From Verrucomicrobiota bacterium (GTDB taxonomy: Bacteria > Verrucomicrobiota > Verrucomicrobiia > JAWXBN01), in the NCBI GenBank assembly GCA_034440155.1, contig JAWXBN010000045.1, positions 1 to 36,047 on the forward strand: 36,047 nucleotides of DNA, read 5' to 3'. This document shows positions 16,541 through 34,397 of the stretch, piece after piece. The notes beneath the pieces were generated by a model. That model was not told where the DNA came from, searched no databases, and saw nothing but the letters and a program-made list of their open reading frames with translations. Every line of letters starts with the position of its first letter. Position 1 is the first letter of the stretch. A program made the position numbers and the translations under genes.

Positions 16541-17446
16541 TTAAGTTTGTACGGGTAAGGGAGAACCTGTGATCCTCCTGTAAGCCTCGAGATAAAGTGC
16601 CGTGGTCCGCGAGACGACATCTTCCGGTAAGTCAGGTGCTGGAGGATGATGATCCCAACCAGCATAATTCAGGTAATCCCTGATAAATTGTTTATCCATG
16701 CCATTCTGGGGTTTACCCGGGACATACTGTGCCCTATTCCAAAAACGTGAAGAATCAGGAGTGAGACATTCATCCATGAGGACAGTCTCGCCATGCTCAA
16801 ATCCGTACTCGAATTTTGTATCCGCAATGAGGATGGCAGCGTGGTCGAGTGATTTTGAGGCGGCTTCGTAGAGTCCGATACTCGCTGTTTTAAGCTTTGC
16901 TGCATTGCCCCAACCGATCGTGTCAGCCATTTGCTCAAAAGTAATATTCTGGTCGTGCCCCTTGTCATTTTTCATGGCCGGGGTAAAAATCGGCTCGGGC
17001 AAAACATCCGATTCTTTCAGACCTAAAGGGAGCTCCACTCCGCAAACCATTCCATTTTCCTGATATTCTTTCCAGGCAGAGCCCGCGAGGTAGCCACGAA
17101 CGACACATTCCACCGGGATCGGGCGGAGTTTTTTGACAAGCATCGAGCGCCCCTCTAGCCAATGGCGGTATTCTTGGAGCCCTTCAGGAAATTCATCATA
17201 ATTAACCGAACGGAAATGATTCAGGACAATATTATTCAGCTTTCTAAACCAATAAGCTGAAATCTGGGTCAATACACGTCCCTTTTGGGGAATAGGGGTT
17301 GGCAAAATACAATCGTATGCGGACAACCTGTCTGTCGCTACAAAAAGGAGGTCTTCCCCCAAATCAAAAACTTCCCTGACCTTTCCACTTTTCAGCTTAG
17401 GAATCCCGGGTAATTCAATATCGTACAAAGTCTCTTCAAAACTCAT
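16541..17446 (-). CDS. purC: phosphoribosylaminoimidazole-succinocarboxamide synthase
   Basis: SAICAR synthase joins CAIR and aspartate using ATP in purine synthesis, in the cytoplasm. The 301 residues correspond to the longer PurC form. Motifs visible: SGKVREVFDLGEDLLFVATD (about 20-40), the nucleotide loop; DRLSAYDCILPTPIPQKG; VECVVRGYLAGSAWKEYQ; ILIADTKFEYGF; and LMDECLTPDSSRFW. It is the first gene of the minus-strand series that runs down to the adenosyltransferase, with a 170-nt divergent gap to the glycoside hydrolase/glycosyltransferase gene. It was probably placed in the series for co-expression; no other pur gene is nearby. Confidence 0.96.
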   Translation of the reverse strand: MSFEETLYDIELPGIPKLKSGKVREVFDLGEDLLFVATDRLSAYDCILPTPIPQKGRVLTQISAYWFRKLNNIVLNHFRSVNYDEFPEGLQEYRHWLEGRSMLVKKLRPIPVECVVRGYLAGSAWKEYQENGMVCGVELPLGLKESDVLPEPIFTPAMKNDKGHDQNITFEQMADTIGWGNAAKLKTASIGLYEAASKSLDHAAILIADTKFEYGFEHGETVLMDECLTPDSSRFWNRAQYVPGKPQNGMDKQFIRDYLNYAGWDHHPPAPDLPEDVVSRTTALYLEAYRRITGSPLPVQT

Positions 17447-17616: not shown

Positions 17617-20184
17617 ATGTCGACGATCTTGGAGACACCGTCTCCTTATTACACACCTACAGCTTTTCATCCCCGTGGAAGGGTTAAAGCTAATGCTAAG
17701 TTCTTTTTCCGTGGCGGACTCAAATTTTTTGTTAAGGGAGTGACCTACGGTCCTTTTGCCCCCTACGTCAATGGGGTCTATTTACATTCGCCCGATCTTA
17801 CACGTAGGGATTTACAAATGATTAAGGAACTCGGGGCCAATGTCCTGCGTTTGTATCATGTGCCCCCACGTTGGTTTCTCGACATGTGTTATGAGTACGA
17901 CCTCCAAGTACTCATCACGATTCCTTGGGAACAACATGTGAATTTCCTCGATAGCCAGAATAGCCGGAAAATTATCGAGAATAAAATCCGCACAGGCGTT
18001 CGTCAAAACGAAGGGCATCCTGCACTTTTTGGTTATATGGTCGGTAATGAGATCCCCCCTTCGACAGTCCGTTGGTACGGACTCAGCCGGGTACAGTCTT
18101 TCTTAGAAAATCTCGTGAATATCGCCAAGGAGGAAGACGATAAGACTTTGGTGACTTATGCGAATTTCCCTTCCACAGAATACTTGATCCCGGCAAATAT
18201 CGATTTTTGCTCATATAATGTTTACCTGGAAAATCCGGCTTCCTTTGAAAAATACCTCGCGCGGCTTCATAATATTTCCGGTGACAAACCCCTGATGCTT
18301 GGGGAGTTTGGCCTTGATTCGATCCGCAATACAGAAGAAAAACAGGCCGAGATACTGGGTTGGCATGTGAAAACCGTCGGACAAATGGGTTTGGCAGGAA
18401 CCATTCTTTTCTCGTGGACGGATGATTGGTACACGGGAAACCATCAAATTACCGATTGGGCTTTTGGACTAGTGGATGCCGAGCGCCGCCCGAAAAAATC
18501 CTATTTCAGGATACAAGACTGTTTCCTCGATGAGGCCGATGGGAAAGCGGGCCAGAGGGTACCCCTGAGAGAATACCCCAAAGTCTCCGTGGTCGTATGC
18601 TCCTATAACGGGGGGAAAACACTGCAAGCCTGTCTCCAGAGCCTGACGGAAGTCGATTATCCCCATTATGAAATTATCCTCGTCGATGATGGGTCCACGG
18701 ATGATACCCAGACAATCACCAAAGACTTTCCCCACATGATCAATATCCGCCAGAAAAACATGGGTTTGAGTTATGCCCGTAATGTCGGGTATCAGCATGC
18801 CACTGGGGATATCATCGCCTATACTGATTCGGACTGTATGGCCGACCGTGACTGGCTTTATTATCTGGTATCGACCATTACGAGCGGAAACTACGCGGGT
18901 GTCGGAGGTCCAAATATCTCTCCTCCCGCACAAAACTGGGTTCAAGCCTGTGTTGCCGCAGCACCAGGTTCCCCCAGCCACGTACTTGTCAGCGATGTGG
19001 TGGCGGAGCATATTCCTGGTTGCAATATGGCTTTTTGGAAATGGGCTATCGATGCGATCGGCGGATGGGATATTGAGTACCGCAAAGCGGGTGACGATGT
19101 GGATTTTTGTTGGCGTCTCCAACAGGCCGGGTATGAGATATCATTCAGTCCTTCGGCGATTGTCTGGCACCATCGTCGTTTTTCGGTAAAAGCATTTTAT
19201 AAACAGCAAGCCGGTTACGGGGAAGCTGAAGCACTCCTGAGGTTTAAGCATCTCATTTTTTTCACCCCAAACGGGAATGCCAAATGGCGCGGAATCGTTT
19301 ATGGGCTTCCTATCGGCCCGAGCATCATTCAAAAACCCATCATTTACCACGGTCTCTTTGGCATGGGCCTTTTCCAATCAATTTATCCTTCGGATGATCC
19401 CGCCATCCTTGATTATACAGGTTCACTCGAATGGGTTTTAGCCGCCATCTGTGTGGGGATTATTTCCATTACTTTCCCGGTTTTAATCCCGATCGTGGTC
19501 TTGATGTTTTTGACCACCCTCTTTGCTGGACTGATGTATGCCGCACGCACGAAGCTGGAACCCAAATATGACACTTTAGCGAGCCGTTTTCTCGTCTGGG
19601 GCTTAGCAGTTTCACAGCCCCTGATCCGAGGCTGGAACCGTCATTACACTTGGATATCCCATAAGACGACTCCCTCCAAAATCCTCACGGGTGAGTCCTC
19701 CCATAAACCAAGTAACCAGTTCACACGCGACAATTCTCTGGCGTATTGGAGTGAAGAAGGAATCGAACGCGACCGGGTCATTACAAAAGTGTGTGATTTG
19801 CTTGAAGCTGAAAACTGGTCATACTCCCTGGATACCGGCTGGACAGACTGGGACATCCAGATTTACGGGAATTACTGGTGGGATATCAGGCTGCGGACCC
19901 AGACTGAAAATCACGGGGGTGATAAACGCCTGACCCGTATCCAGATGGATCCCAAAATGACACCTTTGACGATTGCATTAACCATACTGGTCGGGTTATT
20001 GACATTTACCCTTTATTTTTCAATCGAAATCCAGATAATTTACCTTCTCTGCGTTTTGAGTTTGATTGCCGTCTTCCTGATCTTCTGGGCCTACCGGATC
20101 AGGAGCCGTATCGGGCAAATCGTCATGGAAGCAGCCATCATCATTGGACTCACCCCGGTGAAAACGGACAAAAAGAAATCATAA
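17617..20184 (+). CDS. glycoside hydrolase (TIM-barrel) / GT2 glycosyltransferase membrane fusion
   Basis: An 855-residue two-enzyme protein. Residues 1-310 form a GH2/GH5-like TIM barrel: VKGVTYGPFAP, LRLYHVPPRWFLDMCYEY, the acid/base NE in GNEIPPS (about 143) and the nucleophile in LGEFGLD (about 230). From about 320 a family 2 glycosyltransferase begins: VSVVVCSYNGG, ILVDDGSTDD (about 355), the DxD TDSDC (about 402), and the acceptor region GDDVDFCWR (about 493) with WHHRR. Two membrane segments follow near 605-650, a soluble region near 690-780 and two more membrane segments near 782-830. No signal peptide precedes the GH domain, so both catalytic domains may face the cytoplasm, which would be unusual for a hydrolase. 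It may build or remodel a glycan at the membrane, or the GH domain may act as a transglycosylase; both are inference. Confidence 0.88.
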   Translation: MSTILETPSPYYTPTAFHPRGRVKANAKFFFRGGLKFFVKGVTYGPFAPYVNGVYLHSPDLTRRDLQMIKELGANVLRLYHVPPRWFLDMCYEYDLQVLITIPWEQHVNFLDSQNSRKIIENKIRTGVRQNEGHPALFGYMVGNEIPPSTVRWYGLSRVQSFLENLVNIAKEEDDKTLVTYANFPSTEYLIPANIDFCSYNVYLENPASFEKYLARLHNISGDKPLMLGEFGLDSIRNTEEKQAEILGWHVKTVGQMGLAGTILFSWTDDWYTGNHQITDWAFGLVDAERRPKKSYFRIQDCFLDEADGKAGQRVPLREYPKVSVVVCSYNGGKTLQACLQSLTEVDYPHYEIILVDDGSTDDTQTITKDFPHMINIRQKNMGLSYARNVGYQHATGDIIAYTDSDCMADRDWLYYLVSTITSGNYAGVGGPNISPPAQNWVQACVAAAPGSPSHVLVSDVVAEHIPGCNMAFWKWAIDAIGGWDIEYRKAGDDVDFCWRLQQAGYEISFSPSAIVWHHRRFSVKAFYKQQAGYGEAEALLRFKHLIFFTPNGNAKWRGIVYGLPIGPSIIQKPIIYHGLFGMGLFQSIYPSDDPAILDYTGSLEWVLAAICVGIISITFPVLIPIVVLMFLTTLFAGLMYAARTKLEPKYDTLASRFLVWGLAVSQPLIRGWNRHYTWISHKTTPSKILTGESSHKPSNQFTRDNSLAYWSEEGIERDRVITKVCDLLEAENWSYSLDTGWTDWDIQIYGNYWWDIRLRTQTENHGGDKRLTRIQMDPKMTPLTIALTILVGLLTFTLYFSIEIQIIYLLCVLSLIAVFLIFWAYRIRSRIGQIVMEAAIIIGLTPVKTDKKKS

Positions 20185-20189
20185 AGTCC

Positions 20190-21185
20190 ATGGGGTCTAT
20201 TTTTACTCCCTTTTTCATTCATGAGGGTGCCTCAGGCGACTCATCATGCGGGAGTTTACTTGCAGACCTCGGCACACGCAGGATTTCACCCGCTCACCTA
20301 TATAATAGTCCTGTATTAAGTTCACTCTGGCACCGGGTCCACCTAGCCCATAGCCCGTTAAGACAATCCCCCAAAAAAGGATCATGTGAATACAGTCGTT
20401 TTGCCCAGTCCATGCTTCCATTGGTCTCAGGTAAAAAAGTCACCGTCACAAGTTTAGGCTGTGGGGATGGATATAAAGATGCCCTATTCCTAAAAACCTG
20501 GCAAAAAGCAGCATCTTCAATATCCTATCAACCGGTGGATATCAGTGCCCATCTAGTAAAAAAAGCTTGTGATTCCTGTAGTAAACTATCACGGGTCCAG
20601 ATCATGCCCGGAGTTTGTGGAAACCTAGCCGATCAGCAGTTTATCCAAGATATCAGCCATCTCCAAAAGGATAAAAGCCTCAAAATCGGTTTTTATTTCG
20701 GGATTAACCCAAATTTCCAACAGGTTGATTTTTTTAACCTCTTAAAAAAATCATTCCTCCATTTTGATCATGTGGTTTTCAGCGCAAATCTCGCCCCAGG
20801 TGATGATTATGAAAAAGGTGTCCGTAAAATATTTACTCAATATGACAACCCGGAAACACGCGACTGGTTTTTGGAGTTCCTCGGTTCACTCGGGATTAGG
20901 GCACAAAAAAAGGCGCTGGAATTCTCAATCCGAAAATTCCTGCGCCCCCTACCCCACTACGCAATTTGCGTAAATTATATTTTCCCTGAAAAAACGGCCC
21001 TCTCTCTTTACGGTCAAAGGGTTTCCTTTAAAAAGGGTGAATCACTCGATATCTTTCATTCCTTCCGCCATACATTGCAAACCCTCAAGGGTTTTTCCTT
21101 ATTGAGCCAGCTCACGATTACCCGTGAACAAGTTTCCCCCGATCAACAAGAGGCCCTCCTGTCAGTACAGAAAAAAAGCGCGTAA
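20190..21185 (+). CDS. EgtD-like SAM-dependent methyltransferase
   Basis: A 331-residue protein with a Rossmann motif I, VTSLGCGDGYKDALFL (about 86-101). Its C-terminal half has the style of histidine-specific methyltransferases (EgtD domain): LPG-like SANLAPGDDYEKGV, IFTQYDNPETRDWFLEFLGSLG, VSFKKGESLDIFHSFRHT. EgtD trimethylates histidine in ergothioneine synthesis, but the EgtB partner is absent and the N-terminal ~70 residues differ from EgtD, so the substrate is unknown. It starts 5 nt after the GH-GT2 fusion and is probably co-transcribed with it. Its last codons overlap the hairpin of a terminator used by the opposite strand. It could also be an unrelated class I methyltransferase. Confidence 0.6.
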   Translation: MGSIFTPFFIHEGASGDSSCGSLLADLGTRRISPAHLYNSPVLSSLWHRVHLAHSPLRQSPKKGSCEYSRFAQSMLPLVSGKKVTVTSLGCGDGYKDALFLKTWQKAASSISYQPVDISAHLVKKACDSCSKLSRVQIMPGVCGNLADQQFIQDISHLQKDKSLKIGFYFGINPNFQQVDFFNLLKKSFLHFDHVVFSANLAPGDDYEKGVRKIFTQYDNPETRDWFLEFLGSLGIRAQKKALEFSIRKFLRPLPHYAICVNYIFPEKTALSLYGQRVSFKKGESLDIFHSFRHTLQTLKGFSLLSQLTITREQVSPDQQEALLSVQKKSA

Positions 21186-21228: not shown

Positions 21229-21762
21229 TTATAACGATTTAATGAGAAGGCACGGGTTGCCGCCATAAATCCCGTCCCCGGCAATCTCCCCTCGTACCAC
21301 AGAGGCGGGCTGGATGACGGCATGAGGCCTGATATGTGTGCCCGGACAAATAAAGGCGCGGGCGGCCACCCAGACACTTTCATCTATGATGATGGGGCCC
21401 GTCACGAGATCAAATGTCTCCTTGCGATAGTCGTGGCTGCCCGTACAGAGAAAGGCTTCCTGGGATATACAGACATGGGCCCCGATCCGAACCTCATCAA
21501 GGGAGAGAATCGTGGTCCCCTCACCGATCCAAGAGTAATCCCCGATTTTCAACCTCCACGGCATGGTAATATTCACTCGGGGACGAATCACTACTCCCGC
21601 ACCCACTTGCGCGCCAAAACACCTGAGTAAAAAACGTTTGAAAGAACCGGGATAAGGCAATGCACTTAAGAAAAAGGCTGCTTTTACGAGATACCAGAGG
21701 GACTCGGTGAAGAAGCTTTTTCCCCGGGAGTAACTTTTGTTATTAAACTGGTCGAGTCTCAT
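21229..21762 (-). CDS. WcaF-family O-acetyltransferase
   Basis: A 177-residue left-handed beta-helix acyltransferase similar to WcaF, which acetylates colanic-acid precursors. It opens with the family-typical MRLDQFNNKSYSRGKSF and a hydrophobic stretch (about 22-38). The hexapeptide repeats run from about 55 to 165 (VGAGVVIRPRVNITMP, IGDYSWIGEGTTILS, IGAHVCISQEAFLCTGSHD). The motif GSHDY contains the catalytic-type histidine, and GGNPCLLIK ends the helix as in the family. It is the last gene of the minus-strand polysaccharide cluster, 3 nt after a GT4 gene and 21 nt before the terminator. It probably decorates the glycan with acetyl groups. Confidence 0.9.
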   Translation of the reverse strand: MRLDQFNNKSYSRGKSFFTESLWYLVKAAFFLSALPYPGSFKRFLLRCFGAQVGAGVVIRPRVNITMPWRLKIGDYSWIGEGTTILSLDEVRIGAHVCISQEAFLCTGSHDYRKETFDLVTGPIIIDESVWVAARAFICPGTHIRPHAVIQPASVVRGEIAGDGIYGGNPCLLIKSL

Positions 21763-21765
21763 TTT

Positions 21766-22890
21766 TTAAAGTTTCTCCAGTGCACCGACCATTTGCGAGG
21801 CAATTTTTTCCCAAGTGTATTTTTCGCGGACAAGTGTCGCTCCCTTTTGCCCCATTTCATCGAGGTAATACTCAGGCAGACCGAGCAAATTGCGCAACCC
21901 CTCCTCAATGGAGGGTTCACTGGCTTCCACGATTTTTCCCGCCCCCACGGCGTCCACTTCAGGGAAATTACAGTTATGGGTGATGAGCACGGGTAATCCC
22001 GCTGCCAAAGCCTCCAGTACGGCCATACTGAAACCTTCCGAACGTGAAGGGAGCACAAAAAGCTGGGCATTTTTTAGCAGTGCCGCTTTTTCATTTCCAT
22101 GGACAAGGCCCAGTAATGTCACCCTTTTCCTGAGGTCACAAGAGTCGATCATCTGGTGCAGAATATCTCCGTATCCATCATCCCCCCCTGCAATGACGAG
22201 CTGCCATCCCGGGAAATCACGGTGCAATTTGCTCCAGGCTTTCACTAATAAATCCAAACCCTTTTTCTGATGCAGGCGGGAAAGAAAAACGATCCATTTT
22301 TTATTAAAAAGCTCTGGATGTTTAGCCGTTAAATCGAGCGCGGAAACTGGTCCTTCAAAATCCCCGGCCATAATCCCGTTGGGCAGAGTGACCACATTGG
22401 CTTGCGGACAATAATGTTTAATCTGGGCGGCCTCAGCTTCTGTCAAAGCCCTCCAGAGCGCGGCATCGCGGAAATTTTGGTTCTCAAAAAGCATCCTCAT
22501 GACCGATTTTTTATAAACCCCACGTTTCATCGCCCAGGGTTCGAGCATTCCATGGGGATGGATCACCAAAGGTTTATGCAGCTTGCGCGACAGCTGTCCG
22601 GCGACGAGATTCGGATATACCCACAGCCCATGGACATGGATGGAATCACACTCCCGGGCAAATTGCTCTGCCTGAATACCGTATGATCGAGAATAATAAA
22701 ACCGAGGGAGCAAATGGGGTTCAAAGCTATAAAGCCGAGGCACACTCTCCTGATCCCCCAGATCAGCATCCAGCCCCAGCAGGTCTGAACCATGTCCGGA
22801 ACTCAGGATATGCCCGTGCAAGGGATACAATGCCGTGGCAAAGCCCCCCATCTTCCGGTTCAACGTCTGGGATAGCTGGAGAAGTCTCAT
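21766..22890 (-). CDS. GT4-family glycosyltransferase
   Basis: A retaining glycosyltransferase with the GT-B fold. MRLLQLSQTLNRKMGGFATAL begins the N-terminal Rossmann domain, and HVHGLWVYPNLVAG and HPHGMLEPWAMKRG are acceptor-side motifs. The C-terminal donor domain shows IVFLSRLHQKKGLDLLVKAW, the VIAGGDDGYG strand and the GT4 E-x7-E in SEGFSMAVLEALAAGLPVL. I chose the ATG at 22890, which overlaps the upstream methyltransferase stop by 4 nt; a TTG at 22905 adds five residues and a 19-nt overlap. The protein is cytoplasmic or peripheral and would add one sugar of the repeat unit. Donor and acceptor cannot be told from sequence. Confidence 0.9.
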   Translation of the reverse strand: MRLLQLSQTLNRKMGGFATALYPLHGHILSSGHGSDLLGLDADLGDQESVPRLYSFEPHLLPRFYYSRSYGIQAEQFARECDSIHVHGLWVYPNLVAGQLSRKLHKPLVIHPHGMLEPWAMKRGVYKKSVMRMLFENQNFRDAALWRALTEAEAAQIKHYCPQANVVTLPNGIMAGDFEGPVSALDLTAKHPELFNKKWIVFLSRLHQKKGLDLLVKAWSKLHRDFPGWQLVIAGGDDGYGDILHQMIDSCDLRKRVTLLGLVHGNEKAALLKNAQLFVLPSRSEGFSMAVLEALAAGLPVLITHNCNFPEVDAVGAGKIVEASEPSIEEGLRNLLGLPEYYLDEMGQKGATLVREKYTWEKIASQMVGALEKL

Positions 22891-23636
22891 TGATTTTTTC
22901 GACAAACGTAAATCAAATTAAACCCAAAACGATTCGCCAATATTCCTCCAGCAAAGAATCTCTCGAATGCGAGTGAAAATGTACGGGGAAGGAGTGGAAC
23001 TAACCGCCCACTCAGGAATCCTAAACCATAAACCTTTTCAATTCGAAAACCATATTCGCCAAGGAGACCCCTCATCTGACGAGTGGAAAGATATTTAGGG
23101 CGTGGCTTTTTAAAGAAAAAACTCATGAATTGATGATAAGGATAAAATAATGCTTTGAGGCTATAGGGGTTAAGGTGCGTATTAATGATCATTATACCAT
23201 CAGGCTTGATTACTTTGGCAAGCCAATCAAGGGCTTTGAGCCTGACCTCATGCTCTACATTTGGGAAAAAACGAAATGACGTGATTAAATCATAACGTTT
23301 ATTATATTCACACGATTGATCAATGGAAACATCCAAGCAAATCAATTTTGATTTTTTGACTTTTGAAGCGGCGATTTTTAGCATCGCCTCTGAAATATCA
23401 ATCCCCTCTGAAGATTCCACCAAAGACTCTGTGACTTGAAGAATTCTACCCGTACCACAAGCAAAATCGAGATAACAACTCTTTTTTTCTGAAGTCAGCC
23501 CAGAAATAAAATGCATGAGGAAGCCTTTTTCGACCTCCCAATAAAGAGCTGATCCTGATGAAGGTGCATATTCATTTTTTTCATATTTCTCAGCTAATAC
23601 ATCCGTTTGAAAAAGGCTTTTATAATTCTCATTCAC
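22887..23636 (-). CDS. class I SAM-dependent methyltransferase
   Basis: A 249-residue Rossmann methyltransferase. Motif I is YLDFACGTGRILQVTE (about 57-72), the acidic motif II is EGIDISEAMLKIA, and motif IV is YDLITSFRFFPNV. LAKVIKPDGIMIINTH is the post-motif strand. The start is a GTG at 23636 that overlaps the stop of the upstream gene by 8 nt, in keeping with coupling; no better start is in frame. The C-terminal third has a basic stretch (YHQFMSFFFKKPRPKYLS) that may be membrane-associated. Lying between two glycosyltransferase genes, it probably methylates a sugar or glycan end, but the substrate is not determined. Confidence 0.82.
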   Translation of the reverse strand: MNENYKSLFQTDVLAEKYEKNEYAPSSGSALYWEVEKGFLMHFISGLTSEKKSCYLDFACGTGRILQVTESLVESSEGIDISEAMLKIAASKVKKSKLICLDVSIDQSCEYNKRYDLITSFRFFPNVEHEVRLKALDWLAKVIKPDGIMIINTHLNPYSLKALFYPYHQFMSFFFKKPRPKYLSTRQMRGLLGEYGFRIEKVYGLGFLSGRLVPLLPRTFSLAFERFFAGGILANRFGFNLIYVCRKNQ

Positions 23637-25848
23637 GCTCCACCTCCCAATAACGGGCGATAGCCCGGGCCAAAGAGTTCCCCCTAGTACACAAGTATAA
23701 GATTGCCATCTTGATATTCTTTCTAAATTCCCTGTCTTTGATGTCGTAACCCATTAAATGCTTCAAATGCTCCATGCCATGAGAAGGTTGTGGAACAATC
23801 GTCTTGATTAATAAAGAAAGATGAAAACTGAGATAGTCAGTCAAAACAGGGGCATTCATAGAGGAATACTCCCAATCGCAGAGGATAATTTCACCTTTAA
23901 CCTTAAATAGATTCCATGCTGTAAAATCCCCATGACAAAGGCATACGTCTAGTTGTGTATCCGTATAATTCTCCACAAAGTGCCTCAATGAAGAGGATAA
24001 ATGAAGTTCCTTGAGCTCAGTGATCCAATCTAATTGATTAAGAGATACCGTCCTATATCCAACCATCCTCAATCTTGAGGTAATGAGGGAAGGCATTTTA
24101 TCCCAAGTAAGGCAGTTAAAATTAGAAATGAGTGGTTCATAATCAAAACACAAAAAAGGAAAATCCCCGATAAGATGCACTAGAAATAAACGGGGAGCCC
24201 TAAATATCCCTTCATTTTTTAATTGTGCTACGGAAACAATACTATCAGCCTCATTTTGCATCTCCTTTAATGACCCATTTGAAAATCCTATTTTAATAAA
24301 ATATCGCACTTGCCCTGAGGCATCACATAAATACACATAGACTTTCCCTCGTTTAACTGTAGCTGGGTAAGTGATAAAATAACCATTGGCAGGTAATTTA
24401 AGTTTTTCGAGCAATGGTGATACCACTTCATTGATGATCTTTTTAACAGGATAATCACCGTAAGGACTCATGTTTGTTTCCTGCCTAAAAAAACAATCCA
24501 TACCCAAGGTATGAAGCATCTTTAATCCTGTGCGTAAAAATCTCTTTTTAAAACTCCTTCCCAGAATAAAGTCGTATGGGGATCGATCCTCTAGACGTAC
24601 AAACGAATCAGGAAGGGTCATGATAGGTTTGCCCCCGATAATAATGGACTGAGTCCCATGAAAAACACTCAAGGAAGATTTTTTCCTCGAATTGATCACC
24701 CTCCTTTTGAAAACGAATTGACTAGCTGAATAAAGATTCTTTCCGAAATCCAATGGTGAGAATCTTTTAATAATATCAAGCGAAGCTTTCCCCATTTCAA
24801 TAAGGCGATTGGAATTCGAAGAGATTTTCCCCATTAATTCGGATAATTGGGTAACAGAACGGGAGTTAAAACGATAACCATTTACATCATCTACGACTAA
24901 ATCAGCCGCAGCCCCAGTCGCATGCGTGCCAAGTACGGGCAAACCTGAGGCCATAGCCTCATTTACAACGAGTCCCCAAGGTTCATTATGGGCTGGATGA
25001 ATAAAAACTGATGCTAATCCATAATATGCAGGCAACTCTTCAATCTGCCTGAATCCCGGAAGATAGACCCCTTTAATCCCCCGATCTATGATCATCTTTT
25101 TGAGCTCAGGCATGAGTGGACCATCGCCTAAAATCACTAAGTCCCACGGAGAGGAATGATTCTTACGATAAAGCTCAAAAGCCATAATCAGGCCATCAAT
25201 ATTTTTTCTCGGAATAAAACGGCTGGACGCGAGAAAAAACGGCCCATTCGGTATATTTAGTTTTGACCGAAGACTCTCGTCACATTTTCCCTGAAAGCTC
25301 TGACTCTCCTTAAAAAAGTAATCATTATCGACAATATCATATTTCTCAAAAATCTGTTGATAAGGCACTCTTAAACTCTCAAGATATCGGCGGTGCTCCG
25401 AGCCGCCGCAAAATGCTGCATCGATACTCTTTAAATAAATTTTCTTCAGAAATTCAACAGGGAATAACCTGAACTTATCATCCCCCTTTGTTTCCGTCAT
25501 GAGTATGATTTGTTTCCGATTCTCCCTGGCCCAGCGGATCATGCACCGTGAATCAGGAAGCCTATACCCACAGACAACTAGAATATCAGGATTAAGAGAG
25601 TCTAACTCCTGACTGATTTTCGACGACATTACTCCGGCTGGAATATCCTCGTAAACCAAATCCGGGAAAAGAGTAATCCTCTTAAACCCACAATCACCCG
25701 TAATTTTATCCCATAAATAGGTTTTATCGGAACCCGCAATCTCAAGTGCGGTTAATTCATCACCGACACTATTAAAAACTCCGTAGGCCGCCTTGATCCG
25801 GGCCAAATGATAAGGGCCAAAACGCGGCCATGAAATCAGGACTTTCAT
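23629..25848 (-). CDS. GT4 glycosyltransferase / APH-type kinase fusion
   Basis: A 739-residue protein with two enzymes. Residues 1 to about 390 form a GT4 transferase: FFLASSRFIPRKNIDGLI, VILGDGPLMPELK and the E-x7-E in EPWGLVVNEAMASG (about 288-296). After a linker, residues ~450-739 form an aminoglycoside-phosphotransferase/choline-kinase-like fold: a candidate ATP-binding lysine in YFIKIGF (about 516-520), the catalytic loop HGDFTAWN (about 639) and the metal-binding CDWEY (about 658). In glycan pathways such kinases may phosphorylate sugars or lipid-linked intermediates or cap a chain; which applies here is unknown. It overlaps the upstream GT2 by 4 nt and the downstream methyltransferase by 8 nt. 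The stretch is more AT-rich than the housekeeping region. Confidence 0.88.
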   Translation of the reverse strand: MKVLISWPRFGPYHLARIKAAYGVFNSVGDELTALEIAGSDKTYLWDKITGDCGFKRITLFPDLVYEDIPAGVMSSKISQELDSLNPDILVVCGYRLPDSRCMIRWARENRKQIILMTETKGDDKFRLFPVEFLKKIYLKSIDAAFCGGSEHRRYLESLRVPYQQIFEKYDIVDNDYFFKESQSFQGKCDESLRSKLNIPNGPFFLASSRFIPRKNIDGLIMAFELYRKNHSSPWDLVILGDGPLMPELKKMIIDRGIKGVYLPGFRQIEELPAYYGLASVFIHPAHNEPWGLVVNEAMASGLPVLGTHATGAAADLVVDDVNGYRFNSRSVTQLSELMGKISSNSNRLIEMGKASLDIIKRFSPLDFGKNLYSASQFVFKRRVINSRKKSSLSVFHGTQSIIIGGKPIMTLPDSFVRLEDRSPYDFILGRSFKKRFLRTGLKMLHTLGMDCFFRQETNMSPYGDYPVKKIINEVVSPLLEKLKLPANGYFITYPATVKRGKVYVYLCDASGQVRYFIKIGFSNGSLKEMQNEADSIVSVAQLKNEGIFRAPRLFLVHLIGDFPFLCFDYEPLISNFNCLTWDKMPSLITSRLRMVGYRTVSLNQLDWITELKELHLSSSLRHFVENYTDTQLDVCLCHGDFTAWNLFKVKGEIILCDWEYSSMNAPVLTDYLSFHLSLLIKTIVPQPSHGMEHLKHLMGYDIKDREFRKNIKMAILYLCTRGNSLARAIARYWEVERE

Positions 25849-26678
25849 TTGATATCGAGTATCCTTAATGGACTGATTTTCACAAGAAACATATCCTTCA
25901 GAGCGATCAAATTACCTGAAATCCGTTCAGGACTGCCTCTTAATAATTTTGAAAGATTTGATATTAAGGCTTTACCGATAAATGAAGTTATACATTCTGA
26001 TAATAAGAGTTCACCTTTGCAATGAAGATAATAGGGATTAGCGATCTGGGCATATCCAAATTTCTTGCCACCGATTCTTGATTCAGGCGACTTCAGGTGA
26101 ACCAGCCTACTCCCCAAATAATAGAGTAATTTACCTCTACTTTTAAGATAGTTTGAAAATGGGATTTCAAAAAGCCAAGAATATAGAGGTAGATTCTCAT
26201 CAAAGGAATATCCCTCAAGCGCAGTTCTCCTCACCATCATATTACACCCATAGAGACATACACAGGGATGAATCGATTCATTATCATTCTCATACTCTAA
26301 TAACTCTTGAGCAGTATTCCTGTCCATGAATTCGTCTTTTACGAGTAACCCATTAAACCCCACCGTTTCAGGATTCTTATCTAAGAAATTTATTCCTTTA
26401 AATATATAGTCGACTGCTATCTCCACGTCATCATCAAGAAAAAGCACATACTCCGTTTTAGCGTCTAAATGTTGTAGTGCCTGATTCAGCTGTTTTGTAA
26501 GACCCGGCTCAGAATAAACTACCGTTATTCCCTCAGCGACGCTCAGAGGCAGGTCTGCCGGAGAAGTCACCGAGAGGATCACCTGACTGGGGACAAACGA
26601 TTGGCGGGCTAGGCTCGTCAATGTATCAGCGAGCACTGCCGGGCGACCTTTAGACGCAATGATAACGGTTAGGGACAT
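25845..26678 (-). CDS. GT2-family glycosyltransferase
   Basis: An inverting GT-A glycosyltransferase of 277 residues. MSLTVIIASKGRPAVLADTL opens the nucleotide-sugar domain, LTKQLNQALQHLDAKTEYVLFLDDDVEI carries the DxD-type metal motif at about 84-86, and NMMVRRTALEGYSFDENLPLYSWLFE resembles the acceptor-side region. There is no C-terminal membrane segment, so it is cytoplasmic or peripheral. It is the first gene of the downstream section of the polysaccharide cluster and follows a 355-nt gap that holds a repeat block. It overlaps the GT4-kinase gene by 4 nt. Confidence 0.88.
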   Translation of the reverse strand: MSLTVIIASKGRPAVLADTLTSLARQSFVPSQVILSVTSPADLPLSVAEGITVVYSEPGLTKQLNQALQHLDAKTEYVLFLDDDVEIAVDYIFKGINFLDKNPETVGFNGLLVKDEFMDRNTAQELLEYENDNESIHPCVCLYGCNMMVRRTALEGYSFDENLPLYSWLFEIPFSNYLKSRGKLLYYLGSRLVHLKSPESRIGGKKFGYAQIANPYYLHCKGELLLSECITSFIGKALISNLSKLLRGSPERISGNLIALKDMFLVKISPLRILDIK

Positions 26679-26950
26679 GGGGGTGGGTAGGATATTAAAG
26701 ATTAAAGATGGGATCGAGTTAAAAGTTCAAAGGAGTAAGTTAAAAAAAAATGTTTGCAGATAACCCTTTGTCGGCTGCGTGATGGTGATGAGATTTGCTT
26801 CTGTGTAAATGGTTTCCAGAGGATTTCCTCCCCAAGAAACGAAATAGGGTATGCGTGTGTAGTCTAATGTACGAGGAATAAATCCAGAATCCCAGCAAAA
26901 CGGCGGTGCGGGATCACACGCCCCCCAGATGGAACATGCCCGCCCTCGCT
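26679..26950. other. intergenic stretch without a recognisable gene
   Basis: Apart from the candidate promoter at 26701-26730 I see no coding pattern, RNA gene or strong hairpin in this part of the gap between the GT2 gene and the toxin gene. The remaining part of the gap, from 26951, is repeat sequence described separately. Confidence 0.5.
26701..26730 (-). promoter_or_regulatory. candidate promoter before the GT2 gene
   Basis: On the minus strand TTGAAC (26730-26725) and TTTAAT (26706-26701) are separated by 18 nt and would start transcription about 16 nt before the ATG at 26678. The -10 box matches five of six consensus bases and the -35 four of six. It would give the five-gene section down to the WcaF-like gene its own promoter behind the toxin-antitoxin insertion. 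Confidence 0.32.
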
Positions 26951-27033
26951 CCCGGTCGAGCGAGAATCTCGACCCTCCATTTTATGCGTTCCGATCCTCA
27001 ACCTAGCACCTAGTACTTAGAACTGTTTTTCCC
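26951..27033. repeat. dispersed palindromic repeat, copy A
   Basis: Contains the hairpin with arms GGTCGAG (26954-26960) and CTCGACC (26968-26974), then CCTCCATTTT and a tail CTTAGAACTGTTTTTCCCC (27017 onwards). The same two pieces, in the same order and orientation, recur near 27904, 28168 and 34642. The tail ends exactly at the stop codon of the VapC gene (27034-27036). On the minus strand each copy reads GGAGGG followed by the hairpin, downstream of a gene end. Confidence 0.85.
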
Positions 27034-27435
27034 CTATTCCCCGCAATCCACGGTTTTCACAGAAGTATAATCGAGTAACTTTTTGTCGGCCGTCAGCAAA
27101 ACCAATCCATGATGGAGAGCTGTTGCGACTAGAATCCTATCTGCTGGGTCTTTGTGGATAGGTTCGGCCAAAGAGTAGGCCGCAGCGGCGATGTCGGATG
27201 AGAGTGGTATTTGTGTCAAATTTAGCTGTGCGACAGATGCTTTGATCCATTCGGGGGCTTTCATGGGAAGGAGAATTTTGCCCGCCCAAGACAATTGCGC
27301 GACCTCCAGCGAAGAAATCGCGGATACATAAAGTGAATTAGTCTCATCAAGTAGCAGTCCGGTCGTATGTGCGCCGAGTTTATCCGGACGAGATGCCGCC
27401 CAAAGCCAAACATGTGTATCCAGGAGGTAATTCAA
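27034..27435 (-). CDS. VapC-like PIN-domain toxin
   Basis: Predicted metal-dependent ribonuclease toxin. The acidic PIN residues are in place: Asp in NYLLDTHVWLW near the N-terminus, Glu in AISSLEVAQL, Asp in HKDPADRILVATAL and Asp in LLTADKKLL. I chose a TTG at 27435, which gives the family-typical start MNYLLDTHVWLW and overlaps the antitoxin stop as TTGA. A TTG at 27450 would add five residues (MGKSF). The 133-residue length is normal. It lies directly downstream of a Phd-type antitoxin gene, within the polysaccharide cluster. The stop codon falls at the edge of repeat copy A. Confidence 0.88.
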   Translation of the reverse strand: MNYLLDTHVWLWAASRPDKLGAHTTGLLLDETNSLYVSAISSLEVAQLSWAGKILLPMKAPEWIKASVAQLNLTQIPLSSDIAAAAYSLAEPIHKDPADRILVATALHHGLVLLTADKKLLDYTSVKTVDCGE

Positions 27436-27665
27436 GAAAGACTTTCCCAATCTGAAACGGAACTTTCATATTCAATGCCATCAGGAATCTGGGCACCATC
27501 CGTTAATCCTCCGAGGATCACTTTTTTTTCATTTTCCGCATAGGCGTGGATGGTTACTAGGGGTTTTCCCCGCAAAGTGACGACCAAGGGATGCCCGCTC
27601 TGATTCACCTTTTTGAGACTCTCGATACATTTTGCCTTGAATTCAGAGATTAATATCTTTTCCAT
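27432..27665 (-). CDS. Phd/YefM-type antitoxin
   Basis: A 77-residue antitoxin that should neutralise the downstream PIN toxin and repress their shared promoter. ISEFKAKCIESLKKVNQSG followed by PLVVTLRGKPLVTIHAY is the typical Phd/YefM DNA-binding N-terminus. The acidic C-terminus (GIEYESSVSDWESLS) would occupy the toxin active site. ATG start at 27665 has no Shine-Dalgarno sequence. The promoter at 27673-27701 would begin transcription within about one base of that ATG, so a leaderless mRNA is likely. The toxin start overlaps its stop by 4 nt. Confidence 0.85.
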   Translation of the reverse strand: MEKILISEFKAKCIESLKKVNQSGHPLVVTLRGKPLVTIHAYAENEKKVILGGLTDGAQIPDGIEYESSVSDWESLS

Positions 27666-27672
27666 AAATAAA

Positions 27673-27701
27673 AATGTAACCTAGTCACATGACTAAGTCA
27701 A
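27673..27701 (-). promoter_or_regulatory. toxin-antitoxin promoter with embedded operator palindrome
   Basis: On the minus strand TTGACT (27701-27696) and TACATT (27678-27673) are exactly 17 nt apart. The spacer holds a perfect inverted repeat, arms TAGTCA and TGACTA separated by 2 nt (27682-27695), a fitting operator for the antitoxin. Only 7 nt separate the -10 box from the ATG, so the transcript would have essentially no leader. Confidence 0.7.
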
Positions 27702-27860
27702 ATAACATCCCCGGCCACAAAACTCAAAACGATTGATGTGTGATTTTTAGGTTTGATACCACCTACTTTGACACGCTAGTTGTTGAATTTACCGGGCTTT
27801 TGACTGGAGAGGACTTATCTCTTTTTGCTAAATGCTGTGAAGACCGAGCCCTCGTTGCCT
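27702..27860. other. intergenic stretch, possible gene remnant
   Basis: This part of the 588-nt gap upstream of the antitoxin holds no clear gene. A plus-strand frame from GTG 27740 to a stop at 27875-27877 encodes 45 residues with a protein-like beginning (VIFRFDTTYFDTLVVEF), but its end lies in repeat sequence and it has no start signal. I regard it as chance or a relic. Confidence 0.35.
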
Positions 27861-27976
27861 TGGGCAGGACAGAGTAATTTGCCCGACACGTTTGTCCACA
27901 CACGGTCGAGCGAGAATCTTGACCCTCCATTTTTTTTTTAACTGAGCACTTAGTTCTTAGAACTGTTTTTCCCCTT
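27861..27976. repeat. dispersed palindromic repeat, copy B1
   Basis: Begins with GGGCAGGACAGAGTAATTTG, shared with the blocks at 33655 and 34448, then the GGTCGAG hairpin (27904-27924; its right arm is CTTGACC, which keeps the stem through a G-U pair in RNA), CCTCCATTTT and the CTTAGAACTGTTTTTCCCC tail at 27957-27974. No gene is associated with this copy. Confidence 0.85.
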
Positions 27977-28075
27977 TATTCCATCTACCCCGGACAATCA
28001 GAAGATTGTCCCTCCGGTTGAGGAATCTGTGTTAATCAGTGAAATCTGTGGATGAAAATCCTAAAAAGACGGCAA
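27977..28075. repeat. 99-bp repeat with GGACAATC palindrome, copy 1
   Basis: This 99-bp unit recurs at 35949-36047 with the same length and only about seven differences. It contains a perfect hairpin, arms GGACAATC and GATTGTCC around a 4-nt loop (27992-28011), followed by CCTCC. On the minus strand it reads as a GGAGGG plus stem element, like the other repeats here. Confidence 0.9.
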
Positions 28076-28230
28076 GTGAGGGCTCGCTGCCGATGTCTGC
28101 CGTATCCGTGAAACTCTGACCTGTGGCAAGTGAGGGCTCGCTCGCCCTACACATTTGTCCGCACACGGTCGAGCGAGAATCTTGACCCTCCATTTTTTTA
28201 ACTCAGTACCCAGCACTTAGAACTGTTTTT
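28071..28230. repeat. dispersed palindromic repeat, copy B2
   Basis: Two direct copies of GGCAAGTGAGGGCTCGCT (28071 and 28115) flank a spacer that is also found in the block at 34566-34601. They are followed by the GGTCGAG hairpin (28167-28187), CCTCCATTTT and the ACTTAGAACTGTTTTTT tail. The tail lies about 24 nt downstream of the polymerase-like gene's stop codon. A small GC-rich hairpin (28238-28252) sits between them. Confidence 0.85.
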
Positions 28231-28253
28231 TCTGCCTCCTCGTTTTGCGAGGC

Positions 28254-29837
28254 TCACTCCTGTGTGGCTTTATTCGGGGTCGGGGGATTCATTGTCCGTT
28301 TGGGATAACTGATATTCCTCACATGGGAAACAGGCCCTGTAGGTTGCGGGACTTCTTGATCTTCATTTGCAGGTGCGAATGGAGGAAAAGAGGGAGCAAA
28401 TCCTGCATCTGGATTCTCGAGTGAAGTTATTTTTGAACGGTCGCCCTGTGGGAACCATTTCGCCCCAGGTGCCCTATAGATGATGATAACAAGAAGCACT
28501 GGCAAATATCCCATAAACGCATTGGCACCGTCAATCGCGACAGTTCCTCCTCGTGCGAGACCTGGCATAGCCGCTAAAAAACATGCATAAAGGGTTTGAA
28601 CATTGATGGAGAAATACCTTCTTGTCACCCAATTATAAAGTAAGGCCAATCCTACCCCCTGAATAAATGCGCAAATGACCCCACCCACAAAACCAAAATT
28701 CTCATAATTTTGTCCTAAAAATGTGGGGGAAAAACCCAATGTCCCACTCTCGCGGTTAATATTTTCACTCAGTCGATTCGAGTCCGCCAAAAAAATACCT
28801 TTAAGATGTATCCCTACCGTAAGGGGCTTTTTAATCCCTAAATATTGTTCAACAAAACTCCTCGGCCACCAATGCCAGAGGACAGCAGCATAACTTTTCC
28901 CCCACAGATAACCCTCTTCATCATTAAAATATTTCATATTCATGGCCATTCCTTCGACCCCATTAAAATCTTCAGAAGCTGATAACCTCTCTGTGTAGTA
29001 GCGATATATATTGGAAAAGTTAAGTTCATTCCCCTTATTTTCCTCGTCATAAGCCACGCGCATGGCACCGGCAAGATTAAAAAGAAAAAGTCCAAATAAA
29101 AACGAAAGAATTAATACTGATTGAAGCTTTTTTGATGTAGGATTAAAGCGGAGAAGGAGAATACCAAACGCCACCAAAGGAGCAACTAATTGGAATCTCC
29201 CCTGTGTAGAAAAACTTGTGTATAAATAAATCGCAAAGGCGATCAAAAGAATAAAATATGTCGGATTAAAAATGGATGACCTGAACTTATAGGGAATCCG
29301 TCCGACAATATAGACAGTAATCAGCGTTAAAATACCTGATTTTGTAAAAATCAACATATAAACATAAGCAGATGTATTCCCATACCCATTCATCTGCAAC
29401 TTTTGGGTACTCCATTGACCTAAAGAAAGAAATATCACGGTAAAAAGTATAAGTCCGAAAGGCCCAAGGCGTGCCATTCCTTCCCCATGTTCTTTCGACC
29501 ACTTAAGTGAGATACCTGGAGAATTTACTTTTGGATGGGCAAAAAACTGATAACCGCATAACATAGCGATCATTGAGCAAATCACATAATAAGCAATCTT
29601 CTGGAAAGTAGCTAAAGGATCCACTTCCCCCGTTAAATTCTGAAAAAGTCCCCAAGACTCAGGACTACTCAGGAAAACCAATCGGAATCCCATAAAAAGG
29701 GCTAAGAGGGCAAAAGGAATATGAATCGGATTGTCAAAAATAATTCTACGGTAACGGATAAAATCAACTAATGCCGGGCTCAATGAGAGGGCAATAATCC
29801 AATAACCATACACTTCAATTTCTAATATATTATCCAT
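28254..29837 (-). CDS. polytopic membrane protein, putative Wzy-type polysaccharide polymerase
   Basis: A 527-residue inner-membrane protein with about ten or more hydrophobic segments (for example IPFALLALFMGFRLVFL, FGLILFTVIFLSLG and FVGGVICAFIQGVGLALLY). A large extracytoplasmic-type loop lies around residues 260-380. The last ~65 residues are a Pro-rich hydrophilic tail (FAPSFPPFAPANEDQEVPQP). The layout fits O-antigen or exopolysaccharide polymerases, a family that varies greatly in sequence, so the name rests mainly on topology and context. It overlaps nothing but lies 3 nt after the FkbM gene. An integral membrane protein of unrelated function remains possible. Confidence 0.6.
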   Translation of the reverse strand: MDNILEIEVYGYWIIALSLSPALVDFIRYRRIIFDNPIHIPFALLALFMGFRLVFLSSPESWGLFQNLTGEVDPLATFQKIAYYVICSMIAMLCGYQFFAHPKVNSPGISLKWSKEHGEGMARLGPFGLILFTVIFLSLGQWSTQKLQMNGYGNTSAYVYMLIFTKSGILTLITVYIVGRIPYKFRSSIFNPTYFILLIAFAIYLYTSFSTQGRFQLVAPLVAFGILLLRFNPTSKKLQSVLILSFLFGLFLFNLAGAMRVAYDEENKGNELNFSNIYRYYTERLSASEDFNGVEGMAMNMKYFNDEEGYLWGKSYAAVLWHWWPRSFVEQYLGIKKPLTVGIHLKGIFLADSNRLSENINRESGTLGFSPTFLGQNYENFGFVGGVICAFIQGVGLALLYNWVTRRYFSINVQTLYACFLAAMPGLARGGTVAIDGANAFMGYLPVLLVIIIYRAPGAKWFPQGDRSKITSLENPDAGFAPSFPPFAPANEDQEVPQPTGPVSHVRNISYPKRTMNPPTPNKATQE

Positions 29838-29840
29838 TAA

Positions 29841-30572
29841 CTATCTCAGGCTATCATTAACATATATCTTCTGAATATTACCACCTGTACAAATTGATCT
29901 ACCAACAGGAATTAATCCATACTCTTCTAGTAATTCATCAAAGGGAATGATTTGTTTTTCATCAAATGTATGAATCTCCACTAGAAAAATGCGTGTTCTT
30001 TTTAATATCTCTCCATAGGTCTGGATAAAATCAAACTCACTTCCCTCAATATCACATTTACAGACATCAATCGTTTGTGTTCCCAGTATCTTATCCAAAT
30101 CAACATAATCAACTGATTTTCCTTTAGCATTGAGATTAATGGTCGTTTGTAATAAATTTGAGGGATTGACCATTAGACGTACCGATCCTGCCCTTTGTCC
30201 AACAGCATTAGAAAATATCTGTAACTTGCTTGATTTTATATGATTTGCTATGTTCTTTTTCAGTCTGGAAATTAAATCTGAATTAGCCTCAAAAAGATAA
30301 ATGTGCTCAGGAGAACATCTGAATAATTCTTTTTGCAGATAGGAAATAAAAATCGTAAAGTGCCCGAGATGTGCCCCCAAATCAACGACAGTCCGAGCAG
30401 GGCGTTTCAAAATCACTGACAATTGCCAATAAAATGGTGAACAAAATACATCCTGAAAGCTGGCAAGCTGGTATTTTGAGTCTAGGGGAATCACACCATA
30501 GTCTGCGAGCCTGATCCCACAAGTAATCCAGCGTGCCAGACGCCGATATAGAAAATATGAAAGTTTTTTCAT
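29841..30572 (-). CDS. FkbM-family methyltransferase
   Basis: A 243-residue O-methyltransferase. TVVDLGAHLGHFTIFISYLQ is SAM motif I, IYLFEANSDLISRLKKNI motif II, and VDYVDLDKILGTQTIDVCKCDIEGSEFDFIQ carries the family-defining D-[IV]-EGxE signature near residue 180. FkbM-type enzymes methylate hydroxyl groups of sugars and secondary metabolites and are frequent in surface-glycan clusters. The gene follows the neighbouring methyltransferase by 4 nt and precedes the polymerase-like gene by 3 nt, so all three should be on one message. Confidence 0.9.
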   Translation of the reverse strand: MKKLSYFLYRRLARWITCGIRLADYGVIPLDSKYQLASFQDVFCSPFYWQLSVILKRPARTVVDLGAHLGHFTIFISYLQKELFRCSPEHIYLFEANSDLISRLKKNIANHIKSSKLQIFSNAVGQRAGSVRLMVNPSNLLQTTINLNAKGKSVDYVDLDKILGTQTIDVCKCDIEGSEFDFIQTYGEILKRTRIFLVEIHTFDEKQIIPFDELLEEYGLIPVGRSICTGGNIQKIYVNDSLR

Positions 30573-30576
30573 AAAC

Positions 30577-31173
30577 TCATTTTTTAACAGCTATGGTGAT
30601 AGTATCAAAAGACTTTTCGACTGGAAACCCAATTCTCCCGACAATATTAAAAAATAAGTTTAAAACTTTTGGTTGCCACTTTGCTGAACGCCCTGGAATT
30701 GACCTTTTAAAATGGGTATTTTCAAGTGACTCGAATTTCGATAACTGGATAGTTAGATCGGCATGTTTACATAAAGCCTTCATCCCCTCTGGATAAATCC
30801 TCCAACAATCAATTGGTGCTTGATGGTATGGCCAACTTACTGGATTAATTGTAACCACAAACCCCGACTTTTTTGTAACCCTCGCTAATTCGGGTAGCCA
30901 ATTCCAAATCTCTGAAACATGCTCAATCACCTGAGCTGAAAAAACCATATCATAATGATTATCGGGGATATCAAAATGATAAAAATCACTTTTTGAATAA
31001 GTTAAATTTTTCGATTCATATATATCTAGTGTATCCCAAATGATATTATCGATCTTTACAAGAGACCTGTATGAAGATGGAAAACCATCAGGGCCAATTT
31101 CTAATATTTTCATACCCTCAGTGATCATTGGCATTACATATTTACAAAACAAGAGTCCACTATTTTCATGCAT
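30577..31173 (-). CDS. class I SAM-dependent methyltransferase
   Basis: A compact 198-residue methyltransferase. Motif I is MKILEIGPDGFPSSYRSLV, in which the usual GxGxG is replaced by GPDGF, motif II is IWDTLDIYESK, and motif IV is YDMVFSAQVIEHVSEIWNW. LARVTKKSGFVVTINPVSWPYHQAPIDCWRIYPEGM matches the post-motif region of Methyltransf_11-type proteins in glycan clusters. The ATG at 31173 is supported by GGAGG (31187-31183), 9 nt upstream and lying in the end of the ligase gene. It probably acts on a sugar or glycan intermediate. Confidence 0.85.
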   Translation of the reverse strand: MHENSGLLFCKYVMPMITEGMKILEIGPDGFPSSYRSLVKIDNIIWDTLDIYESKNLTYSKSDFYHFDIPDNHYDMVFSAQVIEHVSEIWNWLPELARVTKKSGFVVTINPVSWPYHQAPIDCWRIYPEGMKALCKHADLTIQLSKFESLENTHFKRSIPGRSAKWQPKVLNLFFNIVGRIGFPVEKSFDTITIAVKK

Positions 31174-31174
31174 A

Positions 31175-32530
31175 TTATATATCCTCCAAGTATTGTTTAT
31201 CCTTAAAAAAAGTAATAGGAATAATGACTGCCAAAGACATTAATAACCCGTACATCTGAAAAGGAAAATCAATCATTGCATAAATACAAAACCCTAAAAA
31301 TGAAACCATACCCGCACGCACAAACATCTTCTGCAAACGATCATGTGACAAGGCAACGAGAGTATACTGTTTAAAGGTGATTAATGTCAAAAACAGCAAA
31401 CAGAGACTGAGTCCTATAACACCTGTCTCTACTAAAAACTGGAGGTAATCATTATGCACATACTCCACCTTTAAATAAATCTCTGGACTCTTGAAAAATG
31501 GATAAACGATGGAGAAACTACCTAATCCCCAGCCCATAACGGGGTAAACAAAAAACATTTTTAATGAATCCTGGTATTGTAACCATCGCCAATCGTTTAC
31601 TAACCTTTGGCTTGAGTCACCAAATAATGAATGACTAACCCGGGCTGACATATCTCCTCCAAATAATATAAAGCAGAATAAAAATACCACAGATACACTT
31701 GTCAAAAATATCCAATTAATCCCAGACAAATATTTTCTCGTGATAAAAAACATCAAACATAATTCGAAAAATAGTATTAATAACCCCCCACGGCTAGCCG
31801 ACAAGAATACACCTCCTGATAAAACTAAACCAATAATTACGGTAAGATATTTCACATCATTTCTGCGATCATCATGCAGCTGATACCGCTCCTGTATCCA
31901 TACCCATAATACCCATATAAAAGGAAAAATGATATTAATATAGGCTGAAAAATGATTCCTGTTCACAAAAGGGCCGACAAACGTAACAGGAGTAATCGCA
32001 TCCCCCCTCCAGCTCAACGGGCGGAACCAGAGTAACTCCTCGGTTCCTGAAATCTTTTGTAGTATAGCGATAAAAACAAGTAATAAAGCGTTCACGATTA
32101 TGGCCATCAGGAATATTTTTTTATGTTTCGCACTGAAATCTGCACAAAAAACTGAAAGTGCCAATAACATGACAAAGAAATACCTGAAAAACTCATGATA
32201 TACCTGATTTGACCTGAGATGTGATGGCAGAAAAGAATGGGCTTTTTCAAGCATTGGTGTGCCATTAACTCCAAAAATATCTAATTCTGATGAAACAACG
32301 AGATAACTTGAAAAATAAAATAATAAAATCAAGCCCACAACTTTGATTATTCCCAGCCTATATAAATTCTTGTTTCTGCTCTTGTCCACAACTACTAATA
32401 TGAATAAGCATATTACTAAACAACACGCTATTTCAATAGACCATGATTCTACCGTTCCAAATGCCCAGGGAAGAAAAATAGTTAAGAGAATCAAAACAAA
32501 AAGCCTGAGGGAAGATAAAAAAACACTCAT
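31175..32530 (-). CDS. O-antigen ligase/polymerase-family membrane protein
   Basis: A 451-residue inner-membrane protein with about twelve hydrophobic segments. It has the WaaL/Wzy_C features: FVGPFVNRNHFSAY before a central segment, SASRGGLLILFF, GWGLGSFSIVYPFF and the large periplasmic-loop motif HNDYLQFLVETGVIG near residue 350. These proteins ligate O-antigen to lipid A core, or polymerise or ligate other lipid-linked glycans. It overlaps the GT4 gene upstream by 4 nt. Together with the polymerase-like protein at 28254 the cluster could hold one polymerase and one ligase. Which is which cannot be told from sequence. Confidence 0.9.
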   Translation of the reverse strand: MSVFLSSLRLFVLILLTIFLPWAFGTVESWSIEIACCLVICLFILVVVDKSRNKNLYRLGIIKVVGLILLFYFSSYLVVSSELDIFGVNGTPMLEKAHSFLPSHLRSNQVYHEFFRYFFVMLLALSVFCADFSAKHKKIFLMAIIVNALLLVFIAILQKISGTEELLWFRPLSWRGDAITPVTFVGPFVNRNHFSAYINIIFPFIWVLWVWIQERYQLHDDRRNDVKYLTVIIGLVLSGGVFLSASRGGLLILFFELCLMFFITRKYLSGINWIFLTSVSVVFLFCFILFGGDMSARVSHSLFGDSSQRLVNDWRWLQYQDSLKMFFVYPVMGWGLGSFSIVYPFFKSPEIYLKVEYVHNDYLQFLVETGVIGLSLCLLFLTLITFKQYTLVALSHDRLQKMFVRAGMVSFLGFCIYAMIDFPFQMYGLLMSLAVIIPITFFKDKQYLEDI

Positions 32531-33585: not shown

Positions 33586-33654
33586 TAAGAAAAATATCTG
33601 GAATTTTTGATGGGTTCATTTTTTTTCTTGGAGGGCAGACGGATCGCCCCCTGT

Positions 33655-33732
33655 GGGCAGGACAGAGCAATTTGCTCGGACAATATTTCTGAAACTCTGA
33701 CCTGCGGCAAGCAGGGCCGCTCGCCCTATACG
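33655..33732. repeat. dispersed palindromic repeat, copy C
   Basis: GGGCAGGACAGAGCAATTTG starts the unit and is shared with 27862 and 34448. The near-palindrome GAGC..GCTC lies at 33665-33677. It continues through GAAACTCTGACCTGCGGCAA and ends in CAGGGCCGCTCGCCCTATAC. It lies between the GT4 gene and the second toxin gene. The preceding bases also contain GGAGGG on the plus strand, the opposite orientation to most copies. Confidence 0.85.
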
Positions 33733-33739
33733 TTTTGAT

Positions 33740-34363: not shown

Positions 34364-34369
34364 AAAAAT

Positions 34370-34397
34370 ATTTTACCACTTAGTCTAGTCTGGTCAA
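34370..34397 (-). promoter_or_regulatory. promoter of the second toxin-antitoxin module
   Basis: On the minus strand TTGACC (34397-34392) and TAAAAT (34375-34370) are 16 nt apart; each matches five of six consensus bases. The spacer contains a direct repeat GACTAGACTA, a possible antitoxin operator and similar in content to the palindrome at 27682-27695. The -10 box ends 6 nt before the ATG. Confidence 0.68.

Follow-up and report, generated by a model that had tools for sequence, protein, structure and literature searches.

The fusion gene and its surroundings

The window, as the whole analysed stretch of 36,047 nucleotides is called here, carries on its forward strand a gene that starts with ATG and encodes a single protein composed of a clan GH-A TIM barrel, a GT2 glycosyltransferase domain and a C-terminal membrane part, in this order (Table 1). 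The gene is the sole full-length copy of the fusion in its own genome, and the AlphaFold model of its product reached a pLDDT of 82 and a pTM of 0.78. Two further elements were discerned beyond the GT2 domain: a conserved YHGxFGxGLFQ segment, which is a possible gating or interface loop, and a small alpha/beta domain.

Table 1. Features of the fusion gene, its product and its immediate neighbours (positions in the window)
Feature	Position	Strand	Basis or remark
purC, divergent upstream neighbour	16541..17446	-	conserved in 8/41 regions compared
GH(clan GH-A)-GT2-membrane fusion protein	17617..20184	+	855 aa; ORF, Pfam, orthologues
Clan GH-A TIM-barrel domain, aa 24-305	17686..18531	+	profile search, AlphaFold model, structure comparison
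E145, predicted acid/base (N144-E145 motif)	18049..18051	+	invariant in 32/32 relatives and in short forms
E230, predicted nucleophile	18304..18306	+	aligned with E224 of LaGH157; invariant in 32/32 and in short forms
GT2 (GT-A) glycosyltransferase domain, aa 320-545	18574..19251	+	Pfam, fold
DxD motif D404-S-D406	18826..18834	+	invariant in 32/32
D493-D494, GT2 catalytic-base motif (AGDDVD)	19093..19098	+	invariant in 32/32
QQxGYG motif, aa 530-535	19204..19221	+	at the place of processive Q(Q/R)xRW, without RW
YHGxFGxGLFQ segment, aa 577-587	19345..19377	+	strong conservation, low model confidence
First membrane pair, helices aa 604-617 and 621-644	19426..19548	+	hydrophobicity, model
Small alpha/beta C-terminal domain, aa 706-781	19732..19959	+	AlphaFold model; without Pfam family
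Second membrane pair, helices about aa 783-802 and 807-828	19963..20100	+	hydrophobicity, model
EgtD-like (Methyltransf_33) SAM methyltransferase	20190..21185	+	5 bp downstream of the fusion gene

The opposite strand holds a convergent polysaccharide cluster (21229-35905, minus strand) with a WcaF-like acetyltransferase, several GT4 and GT2 glycosyltransferases, an O-antigen ligase-like Wzy_C protein and methyltransferases. One gene of this exopolysaccharide-type cluster (23629-25848, minus strand) encodes a GT4 glycosyltransferase fused to a C-terminal choline-kinase-like phosphotransferase domain. Two related PIN-domain proteins, possibly VapC-type toxins, are encoded within the cluster as well (27034-27450 and 33740-34123, minus strand).

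Distribution and conservation of the fusion

Relatives with the same architecture were found in 60/93 genomes of the same class. They also occurred in 36/388 genomes of the phylum sample, in 13/199 genomes of the phylum around an Acidobacteria-labelled carrier and in 7/201 around a Chloroflexota-labelled one. The 41 named loci with the fusion are mostly labelled Verrucomicrobia or Methylacidiphilum and in some cases Acidobacteria, Planctomycetes, Chloroflexi or Gemmatimonadetes, the labels being the submitters' own. A search of the plasmid collection gave no match. A preliminary description of the locus had allowed that the fusion might be absent from relatives and due to assembly; its recurrence across the class, the phylum sample and two other groups rules out an assembly artefact or a chance fusion. 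One apparent relative with a GT domain only, in genome G599, is no counterexample, as a run of N (L130) covers the place of its GH part.

When the GH part alone was used as query, 60 close homologues were recovered, every one of them in a fused frame of 808-1241 aa; beyond these came a gap, followed by matches of 25-35% identity over short stretches. The distances between GH domains and those between GT domains were correlated with r = 0.91, a value that 0/2000 permutations reached and that a single ancient fusion passed on as one unit should give. The fusion is thus old and obligate. Mean pairwise identity is lower in the GH domain than in the GT2 domain (51% vs 64%).

The glycoside hydrolase domain

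The TIM barrel is complete and has the features of a retaining glycosidase of clan GH-A, namely an NE acid/base motif at strand 4 and a glutamate nucleophile at strand 7. E145 lies within the tripeptide GNE and supplies the glutamate of the NE motif, and E230 aligns with the residue of LaGH157 that was replaced in its E224A mutant (PDB 9G4N). R78, N201 and W271 are likewise invariant across the 32 relatives, N144 is kept in 31/32, and Y203 is either Tyr or Phe. A wider alignment of 79 rows showed the catalytic residues kept throughout, including L092, L112 and L118 when read in the correct frame. On these alignments both E145 and E230 occupy catalytic positions, as the preliminary description had supposed when it assigned to the locus a hydrolase with both glutamates in place; its proviso that they might lie elsewhere did not apply.

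Assignment of the barrel to a family is less direct. The Pfam model Glyco_hydro_2_C matched weakly, though above its cut-off (30.4-35.2 bits vs 21), and Glyco_hydro_72 matched the N-terminal half only (27.0 bits vs 25.9). A profile built from 21 relatives had as its top match the GH157 enzyme LaGH157 (3e-21), followed by GH2 beta-galacturonidase and beta-glucuronidases, GH72 and GH158. Structure comparison with the AlphaFold model also placed GH157 closest, with a Z of 31.8 and 2.5 A over 289 residues; GH2 enzymes, beta-glucuronidases next, followed at less than 1 Z unit and must be considered tied. LaGH157, solved with laminari-oligosaccharides (9FZ9, 9G4N, 9G5G), is therefore the best relative in both sequence and structure, yet shares only about 21% identity with the GH domain and, unlike the fusion, is a protein of 537 aa without a glycosyltransferase. 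Neither Pfam nor the model revealed the N-terminal jelly-roll and Ig-like domains of GH2 ahead of the barrel, which starts at aa 24.

The GH domain is, with high probability, catalytically competent. It could alternatively be a carbohydrate-binding platform that merely keeps the nascent glycan in reach of the GT2 domain, a role with which the obligate fusion and the lower conservation of the GH domain would agree. Binding-only GH domains, however, usually lose their catalytic residues, and here both glutamates, R78, N201 and W271, as well as, with few exceptions, N144 and Y203, persist in distant relatives and in soluble forms. The invariance of these residues argues against mere binding, which we consider improbable. 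A GH domain with intact catalytic residues can still act on an unrelated cytoplasmic substrate.

The glycosyltransferase domain

Pfam Glycos_transf_2 matched aa 324-432 with an E value of 1.2e-29 and 103.8 bits, against a cut-off of 23.3. D358, D404, D406, D493 and D494 are invariant in the 32 relatives, which places the domain in GT2 and bears out the earlier reading of an intact DxD. By fold it lies nearest to single GT-A enzymes and to chondroitin and heparosan synthase. With hyaluronan and cellulose synthases the alignment extends over about 270-320 residues and takes in the first membrane helices. The Q(Q/R)xRW motif of processive GT2 synthases of the cellulose and hyaluronan type is absent, and an invariant QQxGYG occupies its position. 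Since the RW is lacking, the GT2 domain may be limited to the addition of a single sugar. Among NCBIfam models, MftF (TIGR03965) gave the top match to the GT2 part, covering aa 317-545 only, at 150.4 bits, which is far under the equivalog cut-off of 280.

Membrane part, sidedness and soluble relatives

The protein has four membrane segments, perhaps five, as the helix at aa 654-682 may be a fifth segment or an interface helix. Ahead of aa 602 no membrane-spanning hydrophobic segment was detected in any of the 32 relatives (19-residue Kyte-Doolittle mean ≤1.55), and past this residue the same mean reached at least 1.93 in all of them. The N-terminus of the window protein does not resemble a signal peptide, and many relatives have almost nothing N-terminal of the barrel, leaving no room for one. 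The number of segments, the lack of a signal peptide and the placement of both domains on the same, cytoplasmic side accordingly agree with what the preliminary description had proposed.

The strongest evidence for a cytoplasmic GH domain comes from membrane-free relatives. Twelve loci (L138-L142, L144-L150), all within one family of the same class, encode proteins of 684-732 aa that contain the GH and GT2 domains with all catalytic residues and no membrane segment at all; they appear to retain part of the small C-terminal domain. One genome (G370) has both a membrane copy with an ABC neighbour (L143) and a soluble copy (L144). The donors of GT2 enzymes, nucleotide sugars, occur in the cytoplasm, and this is where the soluble forms should be active; a cytoplasmic location of the GH domain is therefore very likely throughout the family. 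Both domains thus most likely work in the cytoplasm, and we hold this placement to be highly probable. No exporter gene was found beside the soluble forms, whose neighbours (QueA-like, dehydrogenase-like and similar genes) follow no pattern. Export is hence not essential to the family.

Gene neighbourhood and exporter linkage

At 23 of about 79 distinct loci, an ABC half transporter of the MsbA/ChvA type lies directly downstream of the fusion gene on the same strand, and only in three cases was such an exporter found elsewhere in the same regions. It is adjacent at 7/8 loci fetched from two other phyla, and also at L143. By our own estimate, based on the five full-length exporter genes in the genome of the window, chance adjacency would be expected at a rate near 1 in 1000 per genome. 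None of the neighbouring ABC transporters reached a specific NCBIfam cut-off, those of glucan exporters included. One or two GT-B genes often come after the exporter gene, and genes for polysaccharide deacetylase or YdjC do so in some cases.

Sets of ABC exporter and GT-B genes beside the fusion gene recur at L048 (10525-17392), L132, L133 and L137, those of L048 and L132 also holding polysaccharide deacetylase and YdjC genes. The recurrent set looks like an undescribed biosynthetic cluster.

In the window itself no exporter gene adjoins the fusion gene, and an EgtD-like methyltransferase gene, probably co-transcribed with it, takes that place. As a general partner this methyltransferase was discarded, being found beside the window gene only among the loci compared. 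None of the five exporter candidates in the genome could be assigned as partner; the best ABC relative (G000:C16) is close to an LpxK-like gene and for this reason may be the lipid A MsbA. The purC gene, conserved but divergent and housekeeping, was also dismissed as a functional partner, and its adjacency is probably housekeeping synteny.

The resemblance of the GT2 part to MftF raises the alternative that the fusion oligoglycosylates a small molecule, a lipid or a peptide and that its GH domain cuts the chain to a defined length, with no connection to exported polysaccharide. MftF itself puts a cellulose-like chain on a cofactor (PMC7491314); soluble forms without an exporter exist, and the EgtD-like methyltransferase encoded next to the fusion gene could act on a small molecule. 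Against this stand the score far below the MftF cut-off and, in the relatives, the linkage to exporter and polysaccharide-modification genes, so that such a role is unlikely. The GH domain might instead serve salvage or quality control: it would remove wrong or excess sugars in a form of proof-reading, or recycle a faulty glycolipid, and have no part in shaping the normal product. Placement on the same side, obligate fusion and the fact that the gene is solitary in many genomes would suit this role, which we find rather improbable, though sequence evidence does not separate it from normal trimming.

Comparison with known synthases

Among open-licence papers, the only precedents found for this GH-GT2 pair were the GH17-GT2 proteins and the cyclic glucan synthases (CGS). 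CGS combine GT2 with a GH189 transglycosylase and GH94, and their product leaves through an ABC exporter (Cgt/ChvA/NdvA) (PMC11842490). The fusion resembles them in being a single membrane protein with a GT2 and a glycoside-processing domain, and in having an ABC half transporter as partner gene. It differs in that the GH189 and GH94 domains of CGS have other folds than its TIM barrel, in being far smaller and in its exporter, which is only sometimes adjacent and does not come within the cut-off of the ChvA model. No Pfam match to the CGS-defining domains, GH94 among them, was obtained in the fusion, in which the TIM barrel is the only domain besides the GT2 and membrane parts.

The GH17-GT2 'Orphan'/NdvB proteins of pseudomonads have about the same length and the same general order, with a TIM-barrel GH at the N-terminus and the GT2 and membrane helices after it; their GH17 domain is periplasmic, and a signal peptide and three TM helices precede their GT2 (PMC10237404). 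That shared combination could suggest that here, too, a periplasmic GH acts on a chain pushed through the membrane. However, the GH of the fusion is GH157/GH2/GH72-like, no GH17 match was found in it with Pfam, and no TM helix precedes the GH domain or separates it from the GT2; together with the 12 relatives devoid of membrane segments, this makes a periplasmic GH very improbable. The fusion would work in the manner of cyclic-glucan synthases, yet it belongs to neither known type.

A proposed build-and-edit synthase

The fusion would be a cytoplasm-facing, membrane-anchored bifunctional glycan synthase. Judging by its family, the GT2 domain would move sugars from a nucleotide sugar to a growing oligosaccharide at the inner membrane face. 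The retaining clan GH-A barrel, whose catalytic residues are present, may then trim or transglycosylate the same nascent beta-linked chain, with length setting, branching or cyclisation as the outcome. Finally, the MsbA/ChvA-type ABC exporter, whose gene is linked in many relatives, would carry the product out. That the two activities are coupled on one glycan is likely, because the fusion is obligate. For the whole chain of events, ending in an exported oligosaccharide, our confidence falls slightly short of even. A beta-glucan is the leading guess for the product, as GH157, GH72 and GH158, families active on beta-1,3-glucan, are among the closest relatives of the GH domain, although GH2 relatives of other specificities score nearly as well.

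More tentatively, the family may constitute a previously uncharacterised multi-phylum class of cytoplasmic synthases in which a retaining clan GH-A transglycosidase and a GT2, joined in one polypeptide and working in one compartment, make a new exported oligosaccharide, perhaps cyclic or branched, with a natural soluble form doing the same without the membrane. If this were true, it would represent a compact conserved system in which chain-building and chain-cutting domains share one side of the membrane, and the manner in which bacteria set glycan length would become testable by means of two point mutations. The soluble relatives would ease the biochemistry. Moreover, such a system would suggest that Verrucomicrobiota and other phyla make a glycan not yet described.
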